A stretch of 26,665 nt of DNA from a virus. Below, piece after piece: positions 4,590-26,057 of this stretch (the first letter of the stretch is position 1; the number at the start of each line of letters is the position of its first letter). The stretch covers positions 1 to 26,665 of the IMG/VR virus record IMGVR_UViG_3300042905_002421. One strand, 5' to 3'. A program made the translations under genes and the position numbers. The notes below the pieces were generated by a model. That model made no database searches. It saw only the letters and a list, made by a program, of their open reading frames with translations, and was not told the origin of the DNA.

Positions 4590-4903
4590 ACCAAGAACAA
4601 GAGGACTTAGTTAAATCTATTAACTTTGCCAATGAGTTTATTAAAATTGTTCGTGGATTTAAGTTAGATCAAGAACGGCAAGATAGTTTGCCCCAAGAGA
4701 TAAAAGAGTATTTAGCCAATGAACACCTAAATCAATTAATTACAGATCAGGGATTAGAGCCTGAGATGTTAGTTTGGGGATTGTTGCACATGATTGAAAT
4801 ACTTTTGAAGTTTGCCAATTTACAGCCAAATGATTTAGTTGAAATCATGGATAAGTTTGTTGAAAGCATAACTAATGGGAACGGAGATAAAGATTATGAC
4901 TAA
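4586..4903 (+). CDS. Hypothetical helical protein
   Basis: 105 aa, starting in an ATGA overlap with the Cys-cluster gene and preceded by AAGGGAG. It is rich in Leu, Ile, Glu and Asn and looks all-helical; the stretch LVWGLLHMIEILLKFANLQP is amphipathic and could be a dimer interface or membrane-touching helix. The family is not recognised. It overlaps the WhiB gene by eight bases if WhiB starts at 4896. Confidence 0.7.
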   Translation: MNQEQEDLVKSINFANEFIKIVRGFKLDQERQDSLPQEIKEYLANEHLNQLITDQGLEPEMLVWGLLHMIEILLKFANLQPNDLVEIMDKFVESITNGNGDKDYD

Positions 4904-5219
4904 ACCTAAAAGCCAAGTGTCTTTTACTAAAGCAAGAAAAGTAATAAAGCCAGTTGAATTAAAAATACCAACACCTAAAGATATTGATGATGCACCTTGC
5001 CAAACAGTTGACCCTGAAATCTTTTTTCCTGATCCAACTGATAATGCTGGCATCACAAAAGCCAAAACTCTTTGTGGTAATTGTAATCAAGAAGTTAAAA
5101 CTAAATGTTTATCTTTTGCATTAACTAATAGAGTTCATTACGGAGTTTGGGGTGGACTAACTTCTGATGAAAGACAAACCCTACTTCGCAAACAGTATAG
5201 GAGTAAAAATGAGATGTAA
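4896..5219 (+). CDS. WhiB-family Fe-S transcription factor
   Basis: 107 aa from the ATG at 4896, which has CGGAG about ten bases upstream; an in-frame ATG at 4875 has a poorer site and would extend into the previous gene. The Wbl signature is present: APC..., then CGNC, a fourth Cys, and the diagnostic YGVWGGLTSDER turn followed by a basic tail. WhiB-like proteins bind a [4Fe-4S] cluster through four cysteines and work with the housekeeping sigma factor; they are confined to Actinobacteria and their phages. Here the gap between the third and fourth cysteines is seven residues (NQEVKTK) rather than the usual five. In phages such proteins can repress host whiB genes and affect superinfection. 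Confidence 0.9.
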   Translation: MTKPKSQVSFTKARKVIKPVELKIPTPKDIDDAPCQTVDPEIFFPDPTDNAGITKAKTLCGNCNQEVKTKCLSFALTNRVHYGVWGGLTSDERQTLLRKQYRSKNEM

Positions 5220-7226: not shown

Positions 7227-8564
7227 ATGGCGTATGTAATCAAGCGCAACGGCAGATTTACTGGCTATTACAGGCTAGGCAATAGGCGGTTGTCGGCTGG
7301 CACATGGGCTAATGAAACCGAAGCCATGTATCACGCCATACAATCGGAGAAGCATGGCTCTATTGCCCCTTCAAAGGCTAATTTGAGGGTAGGCGATTTT
7401 ATAGATCAATGGCTGGCGGTGTCTGACCTCATGCCGATCACCAAGAAGGGCTATAAGTCGGTTCTAACTCGATTTGTAATTCCAGTTATAGGAGATCGAG
7501 AACTAACTTCCCTGAAGCCTTCAGACTTAGTTAAGTTAATTGATGATCTCAAACTAGGTGGCGTTAAACCCGCAACGCTAAATCAAGTTAAAGCCTCTCT
7601 TGGCTCTATGTTTTCAAAGTTAGTTAGTTCAGGTCAGTTAGAGAGTAATCCCACGCATGGAATTAAGATCAAGGTCAATCATGCCGATATATCTAATCTC
7701 CTAGCCCCTGATGATTTCAAGGAGATCGTGAAGCATTTACCGACACAAGGAACAAAATTATTCGCCCAATTTCTAGTAGCAAGTGGGTGTCGCTATGGTG
7801 AAGCAACGGAAGTAAGAGCAAAAGACATCAATTTCAAAACTGGCGAAATCTTTATTCAAAGGCGAGTTAGTGATCTAGGTAAGCAATACAACAATGGCGA
7901 GAGATTTCTAGTAGTAGATGCCACGAAGTCAGGGCATAAGAGAAGCCTAGTGATAGGAAAAGCCCTATTACAGCAACTAAAAGCGTATGTCCTAGCAAAA
8001 GGCATAGCAAAAGATGACTTGATGTTCCCAAGAACAATACTGCTGACCCCAAGTAAAATAGAAGGTTCACGAAGCGCAAAGCCCTCTCGACCATTCGAGA
8101 AAGGCGGAAAACAGTTCCAGCATGGAACTCTTTACTCCTATACACATGGGGGTTGCAGATGCGAAGGGTGTAGGCAAGCAGTAGCAAACTACCGCAAAGC
8201 CAAAGCCCAAGCAGAAGCACTAGCAAAAGCAGAGCAGGTAAGAAGCCGAAGCCGTAAGGCAAAGCAGAAGCATCAGCAGAAGCAAGAGCAAGGGAGTTTC
8301 ATCAACAATATGAGCCACATGCCTCGTGATGTATGGAGAACAACATGGAACAAAGCAATAGCCAAGTCCGCAATCGGCTGGTTTCCAAGAACTCACGATT
8401 TACGACATGCTAACGCTACGCAGTTATTAAAAAACGGCGTAGATCTACATGAAGTAAAAGAGCGACTAGGACACCAATCGATCAAGACGACAGAGCGGTA
8501 TTTACACCGCCTTCGTTCACACCAGTCAAAGGCATCTGAAAGTGCCAACGACTATTTGGAGTGA
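7227..8564 (+). CDS. int: Tyrosine-family integrase with inserted Cys motif
   Basis: 445 aa, with AGGGGAAC just before the ATG. Residues about 50-150 form the core-binding (SAM-like) domain; the catalytic domain follows. Active-site residues can be placed: Arg189 (SGCRYGE), Lys234 (DATKSGHK), His390 and Arg393 (HDLRHAN), His416 (RLGHQS) and the nucleophile Tyr425 (TTERYLH). The enzyme would catalyse site-specific integration between phage attP and host attB. Unusually, about 60 residues are inserted between the Lys region and HxxR: HGT...Y..GGCRCEGC (299-315) and then a Lys/Ala/Gln/Arg-rich low-complexity stretch to about 355. HGT...GCRCxxC is a small motif I associate with actinobacterial and actinophage proteins. 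The gene is more GC-rich than those before it. Confidence 0.93.
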   Translation: MAYVIKRNGRFTGYYRLGNRRLSAGTWANETEAMYHAIQSEKHGSIAPSKANLRVGDFIDQWLAVSDLMPITKKGYKSVLTRFVIPVIGDRELTSLKPSDLVKLIDDLKLGGVKPATLNQVKASLGSMFSKLVSSGQLESNPTHGIKIKVNHADISNLLAPDDFKEIVKHLPTQGTKLFAQFLVASGCRYGEATEVRAKDINFKTGEIFIQRRVSDLGKQYNNGERFLVVDATKSGHKRSLVIGKALLQQLKAYVLAKGIAKDDLMFPRTILLTPSKIEGSRSAKPSRPFEKGGKQFQHGTLYSYTHGGCRCEGCRQAVANYRKAKAQAEALAKAEQVRSRSRKAKQKHQQKQEQGSFINNMSHMPRDVWRTTWNKAIAKSAIGWFPRTHDLRHANATQLLKNGVDLHEVKERLGHQSIKTTERYLHRLRSHQSKASESANDYLE

Positions 8565-8566
8565 TG

Positions 8567-9166
8567 ATGAAAACAAACGCAAGAATAAGAGCCGAGCAGA
8601 TGCCAAAGGCAATAGTCAAAGCATCAGCAAAAGCCAAAGCAAGAGTAAAGGCACTAATACTTGGTGGGTCGATCTCGACCTTAGCCGTAGCATTTGGGGT
8701 AGCAACTACAACTGATGCAATAGCACCAACTAGAGCCGAAGCACTAATAGTGCAAGAAACAAAGACCGAAGCAACTTTGAAAAAATATGAGAACGCTCAT
8801 AAATTGACCGATACTGAATTGGTCGAGTTGCTTCGTGCCGTAGGCTTCACAGGTGAGAACCTGAAAGAAGCATGGGCAGTTGCTAAGAAAGAAAGTAATG
8901 GGCGACCTCTCGCTCACAATGGAAACACAAACACAGGCGACAACTCTTGGGGCATATTTCAAATAAATATGATCGGAGAGTTAGGTGAAGATCGTAGAAA
9001 GAGGTTTGGTTTAGAAACTAATGCCGAACTGCTCGATCCTGTGGTTAATGCAAGTATCGCCCACTACATGAGTAGAGGCGGTAAGGACTGGAGTTCTTGG
9101 CATGGAATTACACCAAAGACTAAACAGTTAATGGAACAGTTCCCTATCAAGAAGCCAAAGCAATAG
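8567..9166 (+). CDS. Lysozyme/SLT-like muralytic protein with N-terminal membrane segment
   Basis: The ATG at 8567 lies five bases after GGAG and is preferred over GTG 8561 and ATG 8564; it overlaps no more than the end of the integrase stop. The product is about 199 aa. A Lys/Ala-rich basic N-terminus is followed by one hydrophobic segment (ALILGGSISTLAVAFGVATT), a signal peptide or signal anchor. The C-terminal domain resembles the lytic transglycosylase/lysozyme fold of actinophages: VAKKESNGRP with the catalytic Glu (residue 109), SWGIFQINM, then NASIAHYMSRGGKDWSSW. It would cleave peptidoglycan outside the membrane, for lysis or entry. Its tight link to int suggests the two move as one cassette. 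Confidence 0.8.
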   Translation: MKTNARIRAEQMPKAIVKASAKAKARVKALILGGSISTLAVAFGVATTTDAIAPTRAEALIVQETKTEATLKKYENAHKLTDTELVELLRAVGFTGENLKEAWAVAKKESNGRPLAHNGNTNTGDNSWGIFQINMIGELGEDRRKRFGLETNAELLDPVVNASIAHYMSRGGKDWSSWHGITPKTKQLMEQFPIKKPKQ

Positions 9167-9300: not shown

Positions 9301-9624
9301 ATGGGAGAACACTCATTTGTAGATCGGTATATGGAATTGGACAAGGGATACTTAAAACATAAACAAGAACAATATAAAGATTATAAACAACCTAACCTGC
9401 TTTATACAGAAGAATTGTTTTGGGATAAGTTAGTTCATTTAGGTTGGAGAAAAGATCACACAACAACAGAGTGTTTAGTATTGGTTTGCTCTGCTTGTGA
9501 ATTATCAATAACAAAAGTTGTTCTTAAAAATACCTCTGATGTCAGAGGATTATTAAGTGTAGACGAAAGAAAGCACCATCACCAAAGGTACTATTGCAAA
9601 GCAACAGCAAAAGCAAAGCAATAG
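9301..9624 (+). CDS. Hypothetical protein
   Basis: 107 aa with AGGGG before the ATG. It is rich in Lys, Tyr and Glu at the N-terminus, contains a possible metal site (CLVLVCSAC, then HHHQRYYC), and ends in the Lys/Ala residues encoded by the AGCAAA repeat (KATAKAKQ). I do not recognise the family. It is the last + strand gene; the next gene converges on it 35 bases away. Confidence 0.6.
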   Translation: MGEHSFVDRYMELDKGYLKHKQEQYKDYKQPNLLYTEELFWDKLVHLGWRKDHTTTECLVLVCSACELSITKVVLKNTSDVRGLLSVDERKHHHQRYYCKATAKAKQ

Positions 9625-9659
9625 CAAAGCAATAGCAAAAGCAAAGCAATAGCAAAAGA

Positions 9660-11213
9660 TTAGTAGTTATTTTTTAAATCTTCTAAAAATAAATCATGAG
9701 AAATAGTTTTTTGTATATTTTGTGTAGTTATTAAATTTGTATGTGTTTTATTAAAATACTGTAATTCTCTTTTATACTTTTTAAGTAACTGTTTATTAGG
9801 TAATTTATGCCCAAACAATACACACAAATAATCTTCCGTATTAAAATGAGATCCCTTTAAAGTTGAAAAAAAATCTGATTGAACTAAAATTCTTTCTTTA
9901 TTAATTTCTAATATATTTGTTATTAATTCTGGAGTTTTAGTATTTTGTATAAAATTTTTCCAAAACAATGTGTTTTCTTTATTAGTTACATAATGCCAAT
10001 ATATGTATTCAACTATAGAAAAACTACTAATTTCATTGTTATAATTAAAATTATCTTTAATAAATTTATTTTTTGTTAAAATATTATGTTTATTTGTAAA
10101 AAATTTTTGTAAATTAAAAATTGTTTGCATAAGAGAGGTTGCTTCTAAAGGTTCAACAAAACCTGCGGACAATCCTAACGCTAAACAATTTTTTATCCAA
10201 ATTTCTTTATAAGTTCCAGGTTCAAAAGAAAATAATTTGGGAGGAAAAATTTCAAAACCTAATTTATTTTCAATTTCTATTTTAGCATTATCTACCGAAA
10301 TTTGATTATTATCAAAAACGTAACCACACCCATACCTATTTTGTAATGGGGTTTTCCACATCCAACCATAGTCCATAGCAATTGCTTCTATATATGAAGG
10401 AATTTTTTCATGTTCTTTATTATTTAAGAAAAAGGGCAATGCTTTATTAGTAGGAAGATAATCTTTGTAAGATATCCATTTTGATAAATATTTTTTTCCT
10501 ATAATTAAACGTGCAAATCCAGTGCAATCAAAAACAAAATCTACATCTATACATAAACCATTCTCTAATAATAAATTAGAAATCTCTTCATCTTGATTTA
10601 AATTTATTTCTTTTACTTTACTTTCAATTCTTTTAATCCCCCTATTTTGTGCAACTTTTGATAAATAATCTGCTAATAATTTTGCGTCAAAATTTAAAGA
10701 CCAGGCTCCAAGTTGATTGTAATTTAAAATTGGATTTATATTATTAAACTCAGTTATTTTTGTAAAAGGAACTTTATTATTATTACAAATTTTATTTATA
10801 AAACAATATTCATCCATAGAAATATTATTTATGTAAGAATATAAATGAAATAAATTTGTGTCTAAATTAAATGAATCAAGGTACCCATTTTGTTCTGAAA
10901 TTTCAGGAATTAAATATTCAAATGGATGATAAAAATAATCTTCGTTTTTATTTGACCATCCAGTAAATTTTGCAGTAGTTTTAATTGTAGCATTCGTATG
11001 TTTTATTAAATCAGAAACTGGTATTCCCAAAAAATCCAATGCGTTTATTAAGTTTGGGGTAGACGCTTCTCCTGCTCCTAAAATACCTATTTCTTTACTT
11101 TCAATTAAAACAACATTATCGTCAGGAAAAATAACCTTTGTATATAAAGCGGTTAACCAACCAGCAGTGCCTCCACCTACTACAACTAAGTTATTTATAT
11201 GTTTATTTTTCAA
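9660..11213 (-). CDS. Flavin-dependent halogenase (tryptophan halogenase family)
   Basis: 517 aa from a TTG start with a good AAGGA five bases upstream. All family hallmarks are present: the FAD-binding GGGTAGW at 13-19; GAGEAST (46-52); NATIKTTAKF with Lys78, which aligns to the catalytic lysine (Lys79 of PrnA) that carries hypohalous acid; W-x-W-x-x-P at 284-289, the signature that suppresses monooxygenation; and GFVEPLEATSL at 351-361 with the partner Glu. The enzyme needs FADH2 from a flavin reductase, none of which is encoded here, so it would use a host reductase. It halogenates an aromatic or other substrate that cannot be named from sequence; a cyanophage relative, VirX1, is known. 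The gene is extremely AT-rich (bases 10021-10080 hold only six G or C). Confidence 0.92.
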   Translation of the reverse strand: MKNKHINNLVVVGGGTAGWLTALYTKVIFPDDNVVLIESKEIGILGAGEASTPNLINALDFLGIPVSDLIKHTNATIKTTAKFTGWSNKNEDYFYHPFEYLIPEISEQNGYLDSFNLDTNLFHLYSYINNISMDEYCFINKICNNNKVPFTKITEFNNINPILNYNQLGAWSLNFDAKLLADYLSKVAQNRGIKRIESKVKEINLNQDEEISNLLLENGLCIDVDFVFDCTGFARLIIGKKYLSKWISYKDYLPTNKALPFFLNNKEHEKIPSYIEAIAMDYGWMWKTPLQNRYGCGYVFDNNQISVDNAKIEIENKLGFEIFPPKLFSFEPGTYKEIWIKNCLALGLSAGFVEPLEATSLMQTIFNLQKFFTNKHNILTKNKFIKDNFNYNNEISSFSIVEYIYWHYVTNKENTLFWKNFIQNTKTPELITNILEINKERILVQSDFFSTLKGSHFNTEDYLCVLFGHKLPNKQLLKKYKRELQYFNKTHTNLITTQNIQKTISHDLFLEDLKNNY

Positions 11214-11225
11214 AAGATTCCTTTT

Positions 11226-11993
11226 TTAAATTAAATTTTTTTTAATTTCAGAAAGAACTTGTTCTCTAATATTTGCTTGTTGTGCCATTTTATATCTTTC
11301 TTTTAATAATTTAAATTTTCCATATCTACCAGGAGACTCAGATGATTCTTTAGTAAATCCAAGTAATTTTGTTGACATAACTATTCTTTTAAATTCAATT
11401 TTTTTGTCAGTTTCTATATGTAAATAAAATAAAGGATCTCCTTCTTTAATTTCAAAAAAATTAACATCTAAAGGAATGTGATAATCTAAGGTTAATAAAC
11501 GTGGCCATTGACCTATATCAAATTGACCTGTAGATAAAAGACTACCTTTTGCTGGGCTTACATTAGGAAAATAAGGAGCGGTAAATTTCATTAATACGGG
11601 TTGTTCAGAAAAAAAGAACCATTTCATATTATAAAGTAAATTTGAATAACCATCTAAAGTAGTTGCTCTAACTTTTGTAAGAGTAATTTTTCCGTTAGTA
11701 ATAAGGTCTTGAGAACCTTCTTCTTTGTGTATTGTTTTTAATAAATCTACTGGAAGTTCATGAGTGTCGTCTAAATTTGATAAAACAGTAAAAACATTAT
11801 TAAAATAATCTTTTGTCGCAGGACAAGAAAAAAATCCAATATTTGATGTTTTTTGTGGTCGTAATAAATTTAATACTGGTACAGGATCTCTATACAAAGA
11901 TGCCCAAATTTCATAATCAGAAACATAAGAGGCAGGACACCAATATATTATTAAATTATCTTCATCTTTATTATTCACAAAATTATTCTCCAT
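11226..11993 (-). CDS. Conserved phage protein paired with the halogenase
   Basis: 255 aa. No clear ribosome site precedes the ATG; translation is probably coupled to the reductase gene, whose stop is three bases upstream. The protein has the pattern I remember from an uncharacterised family of marine phage proteins: IIYWCPASYVSDYEIW near the N-terminus, FFSCPAT, WFFFSEQPVLMKFTAPYF, STGQFDIGQW and EGDPLFYLHIETDKK. The last 50 residues are a charged helix. There is no signal peptide or transmembrane segment. It shares the extreme AT-richness of the halogenase, so the two probably arrived together. It may supply, bind or present the substrate, but this is only an inference from position. Confidence 0.75.
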   Translation of the reverse strand: MENNFVNNKDEDNLIIYWCPASYVSDYEIWASLYRDPVPVLNLLRPQKTSNIGFFSCPATKDYFNNVFTVLSNLDDTHELPVDLLKTIHKEEGSQDLITNGKITLTKVRATTLDGYSNLLYNMKWFFFSEQPVLMKFTAPYFPNVSPAKGSLLSTGQFDIGQWPRLLTLDYHIPLDVNFFEIKEGDPLFYLHIETDKKIEFKRIVMSTKLLGFTKESSESPGRYGKFKLLKERYKMAQQANIREQVLSEIKKNLI

Positions 11994-11996
11994 TTA

Positions 11997-14036
11997 TTAA
12001 TTGTTAAGTTTAATTAACTTAACCTCACATGCATCAGTTGTACAGTAAGCCTCTCCTATGGCATCTGCAGCCATGCCAGCATACACTCCTGAAAGATCTA
12101 TAGGAAATAGTTTCATAACTCCCTCCGAATTATATTCGTCAACAGTAATTTGGGTATAAGGCATTTGAGGATATGTAGCATTACCAGAGGGCAAAAACGA
12201 AACGGTTTTAAGTTGTCCATCATACATGTGCAAAACCGTGCCAATGGCAGAAGATTCTGTTTCTGGATTAAAAGAAACAGTTACAGATACAGAATTATCT
12301 GACCAATATCTTTGTGCGGTTGCAGCAAGAGCCATTTTTTCATAAATACTCACATCTTTTTCAGAACGTTTAGCATTTGATTTAATTGGAAAAAATACAA
12401 CTGAAGTTGTATCAGGAGATTCACTTGCTGGTTCTATTCGATAGTTGGCCATTTTAAATAATGGCAACATCGGATCAGAATTAGCAAAACGAATAGCACG
12501 ATTAAAATATTCGCCACCAACAGTCCAATGAACGCCAGGTGATTCACCTGCCAGTATACTAACTGTTCCACTTGGCTTTACTGTTGTTGTCTTTATAGAC
12601 TCACGAATACCGAGCCACTCGGAATAAGTAGTGTCATAGGTTTTAATAACTTTATAACCTTCATCCATCCATTGACGAAGTACTGGTAGTCCTTTGTTAT
12701 CAGCAAAGTTTGCTACACCAGAAATAGATGTTCCTATACGACGATTACGTTGCATAATGGCATTAGTTTCTTCCCAATGAGTAGGAAGAAGAGTCACGGT
12801 CTTTGCATATAAATACGCAAACTTTAAGGTGCGTTTAAAATCTTCAATATCTTCATGACGATTTAAATATGTCTCAACTAATGTACAGCACTCATATGAT
12901 TCAAGAGATTGTTCTGCACATGGGTTATATCCCATAATTCGCCAGTCTTTGTTATTTTCAGGATCAGCCAATCGACCATATTTTCTAGAGATGTCCATCC
13001 AAACAACTCCTGGCTCTCCATTACGAGCAATACCATCAATTATGTTATCTAAATTATCCCCTACATTAACTGATACAGAGTTATTAGACATCCAAGCCCA
13101 TCCTGGCTTTTCTGGATTGTAAGAATTTCTTTCTGGAAATTTTTCTGCGTTTTTTAAATTTAGAAAATCTTCATCATCAATTCTGCCAATAAGTAACTCA
13201 GCAGACCGCCTAACGTTGCCAGATACAACACAAACCCCAATAAGATTCCCAATGTCAGCGATATCAATACGGGTAAGTTTCTGACCAGTACGTTCTTTGA
13301 AGATTCCATCGATGTAATCATGTAACCTAATGAGAGGCTCTGGACCCGCTGCTGTTCCACCAAATGTCTTGATGGGTTCGCCTGCCTTGCGAATTTCTTC
13401 ATAGTTAAACCTAGGACGTTTCGAGTCTGATCGTAGGTAAGCGTTAATAAGCGTGGCCGTTGATTCGACCCAGCCTTCTCTGGTATCTGGAATGACATAT
13501 GTTTCCCCCTCTTGTGGTGCATAAATGGTGAAGTCTTTATCGGCGCCCTTATCGTCGAACCCAACTCCAACCCCAAGCATACTAGCCTCCATTAAAAAAG
13601 CAAAAGGCTTGGCTGGATCAGTCTTAGTCATTGATGCAGTAGACACAAAAGCGCAGTTTTGCAATGCTGCAGAGTTGCGTTGAAGATTAACTAGTGGAGT
13701 TCCCATTACCCATAGACCACGTCCAGGTGGTGTCCACTTTAAATTCCATAAACGATCAAATGCCTCTTTGGCTGAGGAGGCTGCTTTGGCATCTGACCAT
13801 GGAAGGCGATTAGTTTTGGCGTGATCCTTCTGCAGTGAGTACATCCCATTGATGACTCTCTCACATACGTCTACCCATGTTTCCTTCGTACCATCTGGCT
13901 TAAGTCGTGAATAGGTTCTGAGAAAAGTAATTTCTCCTACCGAATTTCCCGCTGCATCTTGATACCCAAAAGGTGCCTTTCTTGTTTTATATGGTGCGAC
14001 AAATTCTTCGGCTAACTTAAAAGAAAAAAGACTCAT
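11997..14036 (-). CDS. nrdJ: Adenosylcobalamin-dependent (class II) ribonucleotide reductase
   Basis: 679 aa, ATG preceded by AGGGG. It matches the monomeric RTPR type of Lactobacillus: LQNCAFVST with the first redox cysteine, FGGTAAGPEPL, GNVRRSAELL, the finger-loop NPCAEQSLE with the radical-site cysteine, a partner cysteine 11 residues later in ECCTLVET, and a C-terminal C-x4-C pair (CTTDAC) that shuttles electrons. It reduces ribonucleoside triphosphates to deoxy forms using B12 and thioredoxin, feeding phage DNA synthesis without oxygen or iron. It has no intein and no second subunit. The first gene part (about 13200-14036) is clearly richer in G+C than the rest (about 11997-13200), suggesting recombination inside the gene. 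The 172-base gap upstream probably holds its promoter. Confidence 0.95.
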   Translation of the reverse strand: MSLFSFKLAEEFVAPYKTRKAPFGYQDAAGNSVGEITFLRTYSRLKPDGTKETWVDVCERVINGMYSLQKDHAKTNRLPWSDAKAASSAKEAFDRLWNLKWTPPGRGLWVMGTPLVNLQRNSAALQNCAFVSTASMTKTDPAKPFAFLMEASMLGVGVGFDDKGADKDFTIYAPQEGETYVIPDTREGWVESTATLINAYLRSDSKRPRFNYEEIRKAGEPIKTFGGTAAGPEPLIRLHDYIDGIFKERTGQKLTRIDIADIGNLIGVCVVSGNVRRSAELLIGRIDDEDFLNLKNAEKFPERNSYNPEKPGWAWMSNNSVSVNVGDNLDNIIDGIARNGEPGVVWMDISRKYGRLADPENNKDWRIMGYNPCAEQSLESYECCTLVETYLNRHEDIEDFKRTLKFAYLYAKTVTLLPTHWEETNAIMQRNRRIGTSISGVANFADNKGLPVLRQWMDEGYKVIKTYDTTYSEWLGIRESIKTTTVKPSGTVSILAGESPGVHWTVGGEYFNRAIRFANSDPMLPLFKMANYRIEPASESPDTTSVVFFPIKSNAKRSEKDVSIYEKMALAATAQRYWSDNSVSVTVSFNPETESSAIGTVLHMYDGQLKTVSFLPSGNATYPQMPYTQITVDEYNSEGVMKLFPIDLSGVYAGMAADAIGEAYCTTDACEVKLIKLNN

Positions 14037-14208: not shown

Positions 14209-15711
14209 CTACTCTTCAATAGATTGTTGAATAATTTTTGTTACTGTATCCTCTTTTAAAGTGTCAGGTAGTTCACGAAGTGCTTGTGCACGATCTCCAA
14301 AAATTGCAGAAAGAACTCCGCCAGAACTTTGACGCTCTGCTGTAATGCGTACAAATTCTCGATTCTCCTCTAACTCTTTTAAATTACCGACTAATTTAAA
14401 TAAACGGTCAATCTCTTGCGATACATTGGGATCAGCATACCCGCCATTCATTTCTTCTGCAAAACGCATAAAAGCCACTCTTTGGCCTTGCATTTCAATA
14501 ATTGCGTTAAGTAAAGCCTTTAGTTGATCTTTAGTCTTTACTTCGACAGGAAGATTGAAAGCACAACTATTGTCAGGCTTGAAAGCAGGACAATTCGAGG
14601 CAACAAAACAAGTGTTACATTGGCGAAGCGACGAGTGTTGGTTGTTAATAATTGGAACATCTTTAAGAACATCCTTTCCGTCTTCATCAGTTTCTACTAC
14701 CGTCTTCATCTTATACCCAAATACAGGTAAATTTTGAACCTCTGAAGGATCTCTTTGCACCACTTCATTTGTAGAAACTTTCCGCATTTCTAACTCACTG
14801 TTATCAGATGAGGGGGGTTCAAATCCCATTAAACCTGTCAATAACTCATCGCTGTTATCAGATAAGTTCTCTTCCTTACCACCTTCAATGATGTGAAAAT
14901 TTGGGCTTTTCTTGTCCATTGATTCCTCTAATCGCTTGTATGACCAGACTGCAACCTTAGTTGATTCCACCGCACTATCTTGCACAAACGCCAAATAGTT
15001 TAATCCAGCCTTCTCTACAATTGCTTTATAACGGGGGCGGGCTTGATCCTTCATTCGCTTGGGATAACGAACTAATTTGGTTCCATCCCAGATGATAGTT
15101 TCGCCTCTTCTCATTGGCGATAGCCATGACAATGTGCTAGCAGTGACAAATGGTATCTGTCTCAGATTGTCTGGCTTGGCACATCCAAGGGCATGATATT
15201 TAGTTCCAAACTCCTTAGAGTAACTTCTGGTAACGGCCGCTAAGTTAGTTACTTCCTCAATCTCAGCGTGAGGCAATAAGACGTTTCCGTATTTTTGAGA
15301 CATTTCTTTCAATGCTTGTAAGCCGTATTCTTGATGCCACACTACCCGTAATTTTGGATCGTTACTGAAAAAGGGGCGCTGTTTTTCCACCCAGTCTAAT
15401 CCTAGAGTTAGTGAGTCAAACTCCTGAAATGCGGTTGCCCTGTCCGCATTGTTAACTAAAAACTCTTGGTAGTCCGCTGCTAAATCAATTAATTCTTCTT
15501 TGGATAACCCAGCCTTATCAGCCTGCGCTGCACCTGACTCAATGTAGACCTTTGTTTCTGGATTAAAATGTTCGTTTATAAGCCATAACTTAGTTTTTGG
15601 TAAGCCCCGTTTACGAAGTCCCCAATAATTAAGTCCCATCGACTCAACTTTCATATCTTCAAGAAGAGTACGGTTAGACCCAACTTCCGTTCCATTAAAT
15701 ATTAGTAGCAT
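14209..15711 (-). CDS. TGT/DpdA-like fold fused to a C-terminal Cys-cluster domain
   Basis: 500 aa, starting in a TAATG overlap with the methyltransferase gene. Residues 1-260 read like the TIM-barrel of tRNA-guanine transglycosylases and phage DpdA DNA-transglycosylases: KVYIESGAAQAD at 54-65 in the place of the DSGG/DSGA loop, RVVWHQEYG (122-130), YHALGCAKPDNLRQIPF (172-188), then TASTLSWLSPMRRG (190-203). DpdA inserts 7-deazaguanine bases into DNA. However, the acidic residue expected in the first loop is Glu58, and the second loop lacks the usual Asp, so activity is uncertain. A linker with two SDNS repeats leads to a separate domain with Cys365, 368, 374 and 383 and a conserved helical segment (IEMQGQRVAFMRFAEEMNGG). 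No deazaguanine synthesis genes lie in the window. The fold assignment is tentative. Confidence 0.5.
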   Translation of the reverse strand: MLLIFNGTEVGSNRTLLEDMKVESMGLNYWGLRKRGLPKTKLWLINEHFNPETKVYIESGAAQADKAGLSKEELIDLAADYQEFLVNNADRATAFQEFDSLTLGLDWVEKQRPFFSNDPKLRVVWHQEYGLQALKEMSQKYGNVLLPHAEIEEVTNLAAVTRSYSKEFGTKYHALGCAKPDNLRQIPFVTASTLSWLSPMRRGETIIWDGTKLVRYPKRMKDQARPRYKAIVEKAGLNYLAFVQDSAVESTKVAVWSYKRLEESMDKKSPNFHIIEGGKEENLSDNSDELLTGLMGFEPPSSDNSELEMRKVSTNEVVQRDPSEVQNLPVFGYKMKTVVETDEDGKDVLKDVPIINNQHSSLRQCNTCFVASNCPAFKPDNSCAFNLPVEVKTKDQLKALLNAIIEMQGQRVAFMRFAEEMNGGYADPNVSQEIDRLFKLVGNLKELEENREFVRITAERQSSGGVLSAIFGDRAQALRELPDTLKEDTVTKIIQQSIEE

Positions 15712-16430
15712 TAAAGTACTTCTATTAATACTTGTAAATTACACAATGCTACATATTTGTATTTTACGTTATTTTTAGTGCAGTATTCTTGCCATGCTTT
15801 AAATTCATGATTTTTCCAACCAGGAAATCCAAAATATTCATCAAAAAGTATATAAGTTCCTGTTGCAATTCTAGTTGGCCCAATAGAATTAAGAACAGTA
15901 GAAGTTGATTCATAAGTATCACAATCTATGTTGATAAAAGAAAAAACTTTTGAATTTTTATTTAACCATTCAGGTAAAGTATCAGAAAAAGACCCTTTAA
16001 TTAAGGAAACATTGTTTTTTACTAAAGGCATTTCTCCATTTTTGTTAAATCCTCCTTTTGGATAATCTAATGAAAAGTCTTCTTCTAAACCTAAAAAAGA
16101 ATCAAAACCAAAAATGGTTTTGGGAAATATTAAATCCGCTAAATAATTTATTGAATCTCCTTCAAATACTCCAAACTCTGCTATATGACCGTCTATTTTT
16201 AATTTAGAAATAGCGCAATTCCACATTTGTCGTTTATTACCGTTTGTAAAAACAATTGCTTCAGACATGTTTTTTTCTGCATAATCTGCAGATTCTTCAA
16301 CTGCTCTTTTTAAAAGATAAATTGCAACACGATTTTGTTCATAAAGAGCAGTATCAACAATTGTTTGTTGAGTTTTAAGTGTTTGATCTTTAATTATTTC
16401 TTGTATTAACGAAAGTAATTCATTATTCAT
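15711..16430 (-). CDS. TylF/macrocin-type O-methyltransferase
   Basis: 239 aa, four bases after the HAD-like gene and without a clear ribosome site. It has the class I SAM methyltransferase motif IAEFGVFEGDS (83-93), the acidic loop FGFDSF around Asp110, a metal-binding segment INIDCDTYEST (167-177) and LFDEYFGFPGW (196-205). This is the order seen in TylF, NovP and MycE, Mg-dependent enzymes that methylate hydroxyls of sugars on antibiotics; many phage and marine relatives act on unknown sugars or glycans. The gene is much more AT-rich than its downstream neighbour. With the halogenase it gives the block a natural-product-like look. Possible targets are virion glycans, host surface sugars or a small molecule. 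Confidence 0.82.
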   Translation of the reverse strand: MNNELLSLIQEIIKDQTLKTQQTIVDTALYEQNRVAIYLLKRAVEESADYAEKNMSEAIVFTNGNKRQMWNCAISKLKIDGHIAEFGVFEGDSINYLADLIFPKTIFGFDSFLGLEEDFSLDYPKGGFNKNGEMPLVKNNVSLIKGSFSDTLPEWLNKNSKVFSFINIDCDTYESTSTVLNSIGPTRIATGTYILFDEYFGFPGWKNHEFKAWQEYCTKNNVKYKYVALCNLQVLIEVL

Positions 16431-24311: not shown

Positions 24312-24585
24312 GGCGGTTTCTTTCGTCTATTACCATTTGAACAGTTCCTAGATAGCCCGCCCCGTCAACTAGGTTGTCTCTTTTTTGTTGATGAATTTCA
24401 CGACAAATTTTTACCCAAGCCATTGCCAATCCAACTTGCTCTTCAGTTATTTTGGCATTAAAAATAACTTCCCAGCCTTTAGCAATGCGATTAAAATTGT
24501 CTAACGGATGATCGTAAGACTTATTACGATCTCCAGTAATTAATCTTTGTGCCTCTTCTAGTATCGTTTCATTGTCCGAGTTCAA
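24292..24585 (-). CDS. DUF6378-like small phage protein
   Basis: 97 aa from a TTG start with AAAGGA seven bases upstream; it overlaps the protease gene by 17 bases. LEEAQRLITGDRNKSYDHPLDNFNRIAKGW followed by GLAMAWVKICREIHQQKRDN and DGAGYLGTVQM is a characteristic phage pattern that I recall as DUF6378, a helical family related in layout to MazG-like nucleotide pyrophosphohydrolases. That relation would imply dNTP clean-up, but it is not shown here. Confidence 0.75.
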   Translation of the reverse strand: MNSDNETILEEAQRLITGDRNKSYDHPLDNFNRIAKGWEVIFNAKITEEQVGLAMAWVKICREIHQQKRDNLVDGAGYLGTVQMVIDERNRRANQSD

Positions 24586-25426
24586 TATAAATTCCTTTCA
24601 CAAAATCATTGCTTGCTGGTTTTGCTACAGACTTTAAATATTTATAAGTATCTTGTATTGAACTTAATTTATTTGACGCCCACCAAGCAGACAAAGATGC
24701 TGTTGCAAATGATGTTCCGTATATATCTTTTTTTAACCCGTCCATTGTAGTTACAGTGTAGTTGTCTTTTAAATAAAAGTCTACTTTGCCCTGTGCATTA
24801 CTGTAAGACTGGATAATTCCAGCAGAATTAACCGATCCTACAGAAACTGTTTCCCTCCAACATCCTGGAGAAAATACAGGTTTTTTATTTCCATCATTTC
24901 CTGCAGGTGTTATTACTGGGACATTTACTTTTTTTAAAGTTTGTATATCTTTTTTAAAAGTTGCAGACGCCCTGCAAGTGGAAAAGGTGTTACCTTGAGA
25001 AAGATTAACTACAGATATATTATATTTTTTTTGATTATTTACTATCCATTTTAAAGCCATGTCTATGTCTTCTAAATAGTAATTAGCAGGATTTCCTTTA
25101 GGATCTATACCTACAATTCTAATCATAATAATTTTGGCCGAAGGATTACTCTGTAGAATTGCCGAAACAACAACAGTTCCATGTCCTAATACTTTGTTTG
25201 TAGATATAGGAGTGTTAGCCGCTCCTACTCCTTCCATTCTTTGTTTACCGTTAGGGCAAGTAAATTCAGAAACAATGCATACTTCATAAACAAGGTTATC
25301 TTTAAACAAAGAAGTATTTATTCCACTATCAATCACTGCTATTGATGGAAGTGGCTCTGCTTGGGTTGGTGGTACTTGTACGCTGTTAAGCAACACCAAC
25401 CCAATCAGAATTACTTTTTTATTCAA
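24569..25426 (-). CDS. Secreted subtilisin-like serine protease (S8)
   Basis: 285 aa from a TTG start next to GGATGG. Residues 1-23 form a signal peptide (KKVILIGLVLL, then TQAEP). The catalytic triad is complete: Asp33 (IAVIDSGI), His82 (GHGTVV), Ser239 (GTSFATAS), with the oxyanion Asn177 (PAGNDG). Two pairs of Cys (about 50/57 and 151/189) could form disulfides. There is no long propeptide between the signal and the catalytic domain, which is short for the family. It would work outside the cell or in the envelope. It is coupled to the secreted protein encoded just before, which might be a substrate or partner. Confidence 0.9.
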   Translation of the reverse strand: MNKKVILIGLVLLNSVQVPPTQAEPLPSIAVIDSGINTSLFKDNLVYEVCIVSEFTCPNGKQRMEGVGAANTPISTNKVLGHGTVVVSAILQSNPSAKIIMIRIVGIDPKGNPANYYLEDIDMALKWIVNNQKKYNISVVNLSQGNTFSTCRASATFKKDIQTLKKVNVPVITPAGNDGNKKPVFSPGCWRETVSVGSVNSAGIIQSYSNAQGKVDFYLKDNYTVTTMDGLKKDIYGTSFATASLSAWWASNKLSSIQDTYKYLKSVAKPASNDFVKGIYIELGQ

Positions 25427-26057
25427 TTAACCATCCAGCAAGCAAAACGTAAAATCTATTTAAGTATCTTTCAATTAATAAAAGTTTACCGTTAATGTTT
25501 GCTTCAAGTTGAGACCGTGTCTTAGGTGTGTCAAACATAGCCATTTCTTTTGTTAAACCTTCCGTTGCAGAAATGGTGGCAGAAGTATTTGCTAAAACTT
25601 TTGGATTAAAATTAATTTTTCCATTTACAAAACTATTTGAATCAAAAGTTACACTATTTGAATAAATAGTTGCGGTAAGCGTAGCAGTATCTACATTCTC
25701 AGTTTTAGTAACTGGAATTGGAATACTTGCTGATCCTTGAGTAAACACCTGTGCTTGTGCATCGTATTTAACTGGATTATCAACAGTACCCATATAACCG
25801 CCTTGATTTTGTCCAGTTACAGGATTTGCTGGTACTTGCAATACCAAAGAACATCCAGGACAACTTGTGTCATTTGGCATTCTTCCATTCCAAGAACCAC
25901 CTGATCCACAAACAGATGTAGTACAAACAATGGTATTGACAACAGTACCTGTTGAATCAACAACTGCGTATGTTGCCTCTCCATTTGCATTTGCAGGTAT
26001 TATTGAAACAGTTGTTAACACACCAACAGCAATTAATGTATTAATTATTTTTTTCAT
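25419..26057 (-). CDS. Secreted hypothetical protein
   Basis: 212 aa, ATGA overlap with the previous gene. It has a clear signal peptide (MKKIINTLIAVGVLTTVSII, then PANANG, a plausible cleavage site). The mature start is ATYAVVDSTGTVVNTIVC with four Cys in CTTSVCG and CPGC, suggesting disulfides. The middle is Thr/Ser/Asn-rich and probably beta; the end is helical (LLLIERYLNRFYVLLAGWLIE). No family with known function is recognised, though the YAVVDxxGxVxNxI opening is familiar from environmental phages. It is encoded together with the S8 protease. Confidence 0.75.
   Translation of the reverse strand: MKKIINTLIAVGVLTTVSIIPANANGEATYAVVDSTGTVVNTIVCTTSVCGSGGSWNGRMPNDTSCPGCSLVLQVPANPVTGQNQGGYMGTVDNPVKYDAQAQVFTQGSASIPIPVTKTENVDTATLTATIYSNSVTFDSNSFVNGKINFNPKVLANTSATISATEGLTKEMAMFDTPKTRSQLEANINGKLLLIERYLNRFYVLLAGWLIE

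Follow-up and report, generated by a model that had tools for sequence, protein, structure and literature searches.

Why does a virus carry a gene for a flavin-dependent halogenase close behind a ribonucleotide reductase gene, and does the small conserved gene between the two belong to the same pathway? These questions are raised by a virus record from IMG/VR (26,665 bp), which may be a genome fragment and whose whole length is referred to here as the window. Three genes follow each other on the minus strand in the order of transcription: a gene for an adenosylcobalamin (B12)-dependent class II ribonucleotide reductase (RNR; 11997-14036; PF17975, PF21995, phrog_367), a gene for a 255-aa protein (11226-11993), hereafter the partner, which starts 3 bases beyond the RNR stop codon, and a gene for a 517-aa halogenase (9660-11213). 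This run converges on a plus-strand block consisting of a conserved 107-aa gene of unassigned function (9301-9624), taken from the list of open reading frames and found again in sibling phages, a SLT_3 lysozyme-like gene (8561-9166; PF18896) and a tyrosine integrase gene (7227-8564; PF00589). A PHROG match identified a WhiB-like gene at 4875-5219, from which we infer that the host probably belongs to the actinobacteria. Promoter and terminator scans returned signals at background level only.

The halogenase and its partner

The halogenase gene starts with a TTG codon at 11213, and AAGGAA lies six bases upstream of this codon. Its product matched PF04820 over residues 9-475 (303 bits, cut-off 21, E 5e-90) and phrog_2928 (E 1e-92). 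An earlier note on this DNA had described the enzyme as complete, naming Lys78, a W-x-W-x-x-P motif and GFVEPLE, and each of these was recovered: the protein contains a dinucleotide (FAD) motif at G13-G18, Lys78, WMWKTP at residues 284-289, where Thr replaces the canonical Ile of WxWxIP, and GFVEPLE at residues 351-357 with E354/E357. Across 22 aligned phage relatives, Lys78, W284, P289, E354, P355 and L356 are unchanged and the WxWxxP and FVEPLE motifs near-invariant. Among solved structures, tryptophan halogenases (Th-Hal, PrnA) match best, and VirX1 scored 162 bits. The AF2 model (pLDDT 90) superimposes on Thal, PrnA and RebH with TM-scores of 0.80-0.84 (PrnA 0.84), and alignment to PrnA places K79, H101 and F103 of that enzyme at K78, H96 and F98. 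PrnA, Thal, RebH, PyrH and Th-Hal thus resemble the window enzyme in fold, in the catalytic pair of Lys and Glu and in the positions of the H101/F103 aromatic clamp, but are only 22-26% identical to it. Sequence and model together confirm the product of 9660-11213 as a complete flavin-dependent halogenase within the tryptophan-halogenase superfamily. In PrnA and RebH, a C-terminal strap contacts both the carboxylate and the amine of the free amino acid; the phmmer alignment to PrnA stops short of this strap, and free tryptophan is therefore not indicated as the substrate.

In a tree of 135 halogenases, the window gene is placed deep inside a phage-dominated clade, closest to the genes from contigs L025-L028 (66-72% identity; L025 72%, L026 71%). 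Comparison with L025 and L026 gave a dN of 0.18, a dS of 0.80-0.82 and a dN/dS of about 0.22, which indicates purifying selection on the protein.

The gene preceding the halogenase had been taken for a conserved, uncharacterised phage protein, and it does match phrog_17480 (E 7e-14), a family with no assigned function. The partner matched no Pfam family, and a tblastn search against GenBank phages found no relative, so that the family is represented solely on viral contigs from metagenomes, with 63 loci in IMG/VR. An alignment of the family revealed an invariant core motif, GQFDIGQW, and the dN/dS between the window partner and that of L345 is about 0.46. From its AF2 model (pLDDT 79), the partner is predicted to have a dUTPase-like beta fold: dUTPases were the closest solved folds in Foldseek comparisons with PDB and BFVD, at moderate scores (E 5e-4, TM by target 0.51-0.57, by query 0.3-0.36). 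The likeness is one of fold only. The dUTPase profile PF00692 matched none of 16 partner-family members at E up to 10, and a helical C-terminus takes the place of the tail found in trimeric dUTPases. We therefore reject a role as a dUTPase enzyme, given the lack of a profile match or detectable motifs. The partner is probably a distant relative of a DUF6065-like phage family (phrog_7084), as judged from a deeper alignment (hhalign probability 87%, E 4e-6), although a shallower profile comparison was insignificant (probability 0.7%) and the DUF6065 profile PF19541 did not match the partner family. The two are separate families by sequence, but both recur beside phage halogenases. A subtilase with a signal-like N-terminus, adjoining another secreted-looking protein, is encoded at 24569-26057 (-) in the window, and a similar subtilase-like protein recurs near the partner genes of L010-L021.

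Both genes of the pair are more AT-rich than their neighbours, as had been noted earlier: the GC content is 24.1% for the halogenase gene (GC3 0.133) and 26.7% for the partner gene (GC3 0.105), as compared to 40% for the RNR gene and 44-45% for the integrase and SLT genes. At nearly every locus examined, genes of the two families are likewise AT-richer than the DNA around them, and the phages concerned differ in GC. However, a TylF-like methyltransferase gene at 15711-16430 (-), with a GC content of 27.5%, is as AT-rich as the pair, and the AT-rich island is therefore not exclusive to it. This composition fits either horizontally moving cargo or a common compositional bias, and alone it marks no single transfer event. 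The TylF-like gene is missing from 18 sibling loci that have the flanking transglycosylase-like gene and has a counterpart in L447 at 71%; its locus looks like a second cargo site. A 500-aa queuine tRNA-ribosyltransferase-like protein with a Cys cluster (phrog_887), possibly of the DNA 7-deazaguanine kind, is encoded at 14209-15711 (-).

A cargo slot behind the ribonucleotide reductase gene

Sibling phages were found by searching IMG/VR with the RNR and the integrase of the window, and the site was surveyed in 75 unique contigs. In these siblings the borders are constant, with the RNR gene on one side, on the same strand as the cargo, and the block of the 107-aa, SLT and integrase genes on the other, while the content between them varies. 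This delimits a cargo slot, which in the window extends from the RNR gene to the convergent 107-aa gene (9625-11996). The slot is empty (36-48 bp) in 15 unique contigs that have the 107-aa border gene. Elsewhere it holds the partner alone (L345/L502, 59% identical to the window partner; L456, 49%), the halogenase alone (L026), or both, as in the window lineage. Further variants contain c0, a 94-aa tryptophan-rich membrane protein, together with the partner and the halogenase (L395, L478), with the halogenase only (L346, L448, L454), or with the halogenase and a DUF6065-like protein (L447/L455); L419 carries the halogenase and a small ORF. In four contigs (L464, L355, L427, L431) the slot is occupied by genes for a cobalamin adenosyltransferase (PF01923), an AdoMet decarboxylase (PF02675) and a secreted-looking protein, and here the adenosyltransferase is plausibly a helper of the adjoining B12-dependent RNR.

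The window and L026 are collinear on both sides of the slot, with 83.5-85.4% DNA identity, and differ by one clean block of 792 bp that corresponds to the partner; the branching order of L026, L025 and the window fits either gain or loss. In the halogenase tree, the halogenases found in the slot require four changes, three of which are forced by well-supported branches, which means that halogenases of separate lineages entered the slot independently, at least three times. Independent repeat entry at one site suggests that these phages benefit from halogenase activity. The slot variants also provide natural contrasts, in that matched phages either have or lack the halogenase or the partner.

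The earlier note had regarded the two genes as a portable unit. A strict pair, always moving together, is ruled out by L026, where the partner is missing, and by L345/L502 and L456, where the slot contains a partner but no halogenase. The search for co-occurrence that the note had proposed gave a mixed result. The partner lies directly 5' of a halogenase on the same strand, with a gap of -1 to +15 bp, not only in the window but also in L395, L478, L133/L134 and L117, so that the adjacency spans five lineages and three kinds of site. The pairs of L133/L134 and L117 are located at sites unrelated to the slot, and their stop and start codons overlap (-1 bp). On the other hand, any halogenase was present in only 10/50 partner records and a partner in only 6/50 halogenase records, and 48/57 distinct partner sequences had no halogenase within two genes.

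Adjacency to a halogenase changes at least four times in the partner tree, as forced by well-supported branches. Where both genes share a record, they are marginally closer than under uniform placement: the distance is below 1 kb in 3/14 records other than the window (simulated p 0.02), and the combined Fisher p, with the window left out, is 0.10. Over all 75 slot contigs the two genes co-occur above expectation (p 0.011), whereas within filled slots they do not (p 1.0). Identities between pairs are incongruent, being 52% for the halogenases and 27% for the partners of L083 and L117, and 42% and 29% for the window and L133, which indicates that pairs were probably assembled more than once. Recurrent adjacency, in several cases with overlapping stop and start codons, makes some functional link plausible. 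From these gene arrangements we read the association as optional and recurrent rather than as a unit.

Halogenases in other phages

Halogenases had been called rare in phages, a view that the present searches overturn. A tblastn search with the window halogenase matched 64 phage records in GenBank, and at least 589 halogenase stretches were confirmed in a profile scan of IMG/VR. Halogenases have been reported in 20/153 cyanophages (PMC10452541) and in the lake actinophage DSL-LC01, an Actinomycetia phage (PMC10611076). The halogenase type is already known from many phages; the recurrent pairing with the partner and the cargo slot appear to be undescribed. VirX1 of a cyanophage (PDB 6qgm), the PrnA-like protein of Pelagibacter phage HTVC008M, which is the top GenBank phage match (38% over 83%), and the cyanophage "tryptophan halogenases" (phrog_2928) have the superfamily and the catalytic motifs in common with the window enzyme. 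Unlike these, the latter is located in an RNR-linked slot next to a dUTPase-fold partner, outside structural or T4-like modules. DSL-LC01 resembles the window phage as a WhiB-bearing, actinobacteria-assigned phage with a halogenase (PMC10611076), but its enzyme is only 27.7% identical, has altered motifs (GWVSKIP, IEPLD) and is encoded near collagen-like and glycosyltransferase genes.

Among 98 representative halogenase loci, a 2OG-Fe(II) oxygenase was found at most five genes away in 45, and other recurrent neighbours were DUF6065-like proteins, APS kinase, carbamoyltransferase and further halogenases. The c0 gene (e.g., L121:9523-9804(+)), which has no PHROG match, lies 3' of about one third of these 98 halogenases, and its start often overlaps the halogenase stop codon. 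Among the 78 best c0 loci, a halogenase is the neighbour in 58. An exclusive partnership of c0 with halogenases is ruled out by copies among replication genes or modules. Common as these genes are, we know of no natural substrate of any phage halogenase; concrete leads to one are the dUTPase-fold partner, which recurs beside the enzyme, and c0.

Possible roles of the pair

The best reading of the locus is that the pair forms an accessory operon of recent assembly, in which the halogenase would use FADH2 supplied by the host. Both genes would be accessory cargo inserted directly behind the class II RNR gene in a clade of phages that bear WhiB and probably infect actinobacteria, and would be co-transcribed with that gene. 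The earlier note had also stated that no flavin reductase is present; neither the Flavin_Reduct nor the FMN_red family matched within the 26,665-bp record, although this holds for a record that may be incomplete. Host flavin reductases would then supply the FADH2; from this, O2 and chloride or bromide, a hypohalous species would form, pass to Lys78 and react with an aromatic substrate positioned close to H96/F98, the counterparts of PrnA H101/F103. The dUTPase-fold partner would act in the halogenase pathway, where in the simplest case it would bind the substrate or prepare it, and the product might be directed at the infected cell or at its competitors. Because halogenases occur without the partner at the same site, it would not be strictly required. 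We consider it fairly likely that the pair is accessory cargo behind the RNR gene, with the halogenase acting on an aromatic substrate and the partner in the same pathway.

A lesser but serious prospect is that chance alone brought partner and halogenase into one slot, as two unrelated cargo genes that are both frequent in the accessory pool. Each of them occurs alone at this site in siblings, they are not associated within filled slots, and partners elsewhere mostly lack a halogenase; moreover, the nearest relatives of both window genes are solo genes, L345 for the partner and L025 and L026 for the halogenase. Chance sharing accounts less well for the pairs of L133/L134 and L117, which repeat order and strand at unrelated sites with a 1-bp overlap, and for the co-occurrence across the 75 slot contigs. 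The opposite extreme, along the lines of the earlier note, is an obligate two-gene unit that travels as one and has its substrate set by the partner. It agrees with the recurrence of the gene order in five lineages, but is very unlikely in view of same-clade halogenases without a partner (L025-L028), partners without halogenases and the incongruent pair identities.

Two further alternatives concern the halogenase itself. Rather than a free metabolite, it may modify components of the virion or the cell envelope, such as tail fibres, surface glycans or membrane-linked substrates, in keeping with relatives near tail-fibre-like (L025) or collagen-like (DSL-LC01) genes, with neighbouring 2OG-Fe(II) oxygenases in nearly half of the representatives, with relatives adjoining sulfotransferase, APS kinase and glycosyltransferase genes, and with the frequent position of such relatives immediately 5' of a small membrane protein. 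We regard this as rather unlikely for the window enzyme, whose gene lies between the RNR and the lysis and integration genes and has no adjoining membrane-protein or tail gene. That the protein is a flavoprotein of halogenase ancestry in which halogenation was lost is improbable: altered motifs in some phage relatives, such as that of DSL-LC01, and the Thr in the WxWxIP motif of the window enzyme would be consistent with such a loss, but its catalytic residues are all present, it is under purifying selection and its superfamily fold is predicted with high confidence.

A further reading starts from the slots of L395 and L478. Their trio of partner, halogenase and c0 might form the core of a halogenation module that is specific to phages and associated with the membrane, gained or lost for competition during infection, in which the dUTPase-fold protein would bind a nucleotide-like or envelope-linked substrate; the window phage, which is without c0 at this site, would carry a reduced form. 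We regard this proposal as doubtful. At other loci (L132, L135, L151, L124, L178), two to three halogenases occur together with several 2OG-Fe(II) oxygenases, DUF6065-like proteins and a carbamoyltransferase, a gene content that marks a large putative tailoring island of unassigned purpose. A halogenase 35% identical to that of the window was also found in L187 (CAMDML010000045.1), which is titled as a Klebsiella pneumoniae MAG and is possibly a mis-binned phage contig.
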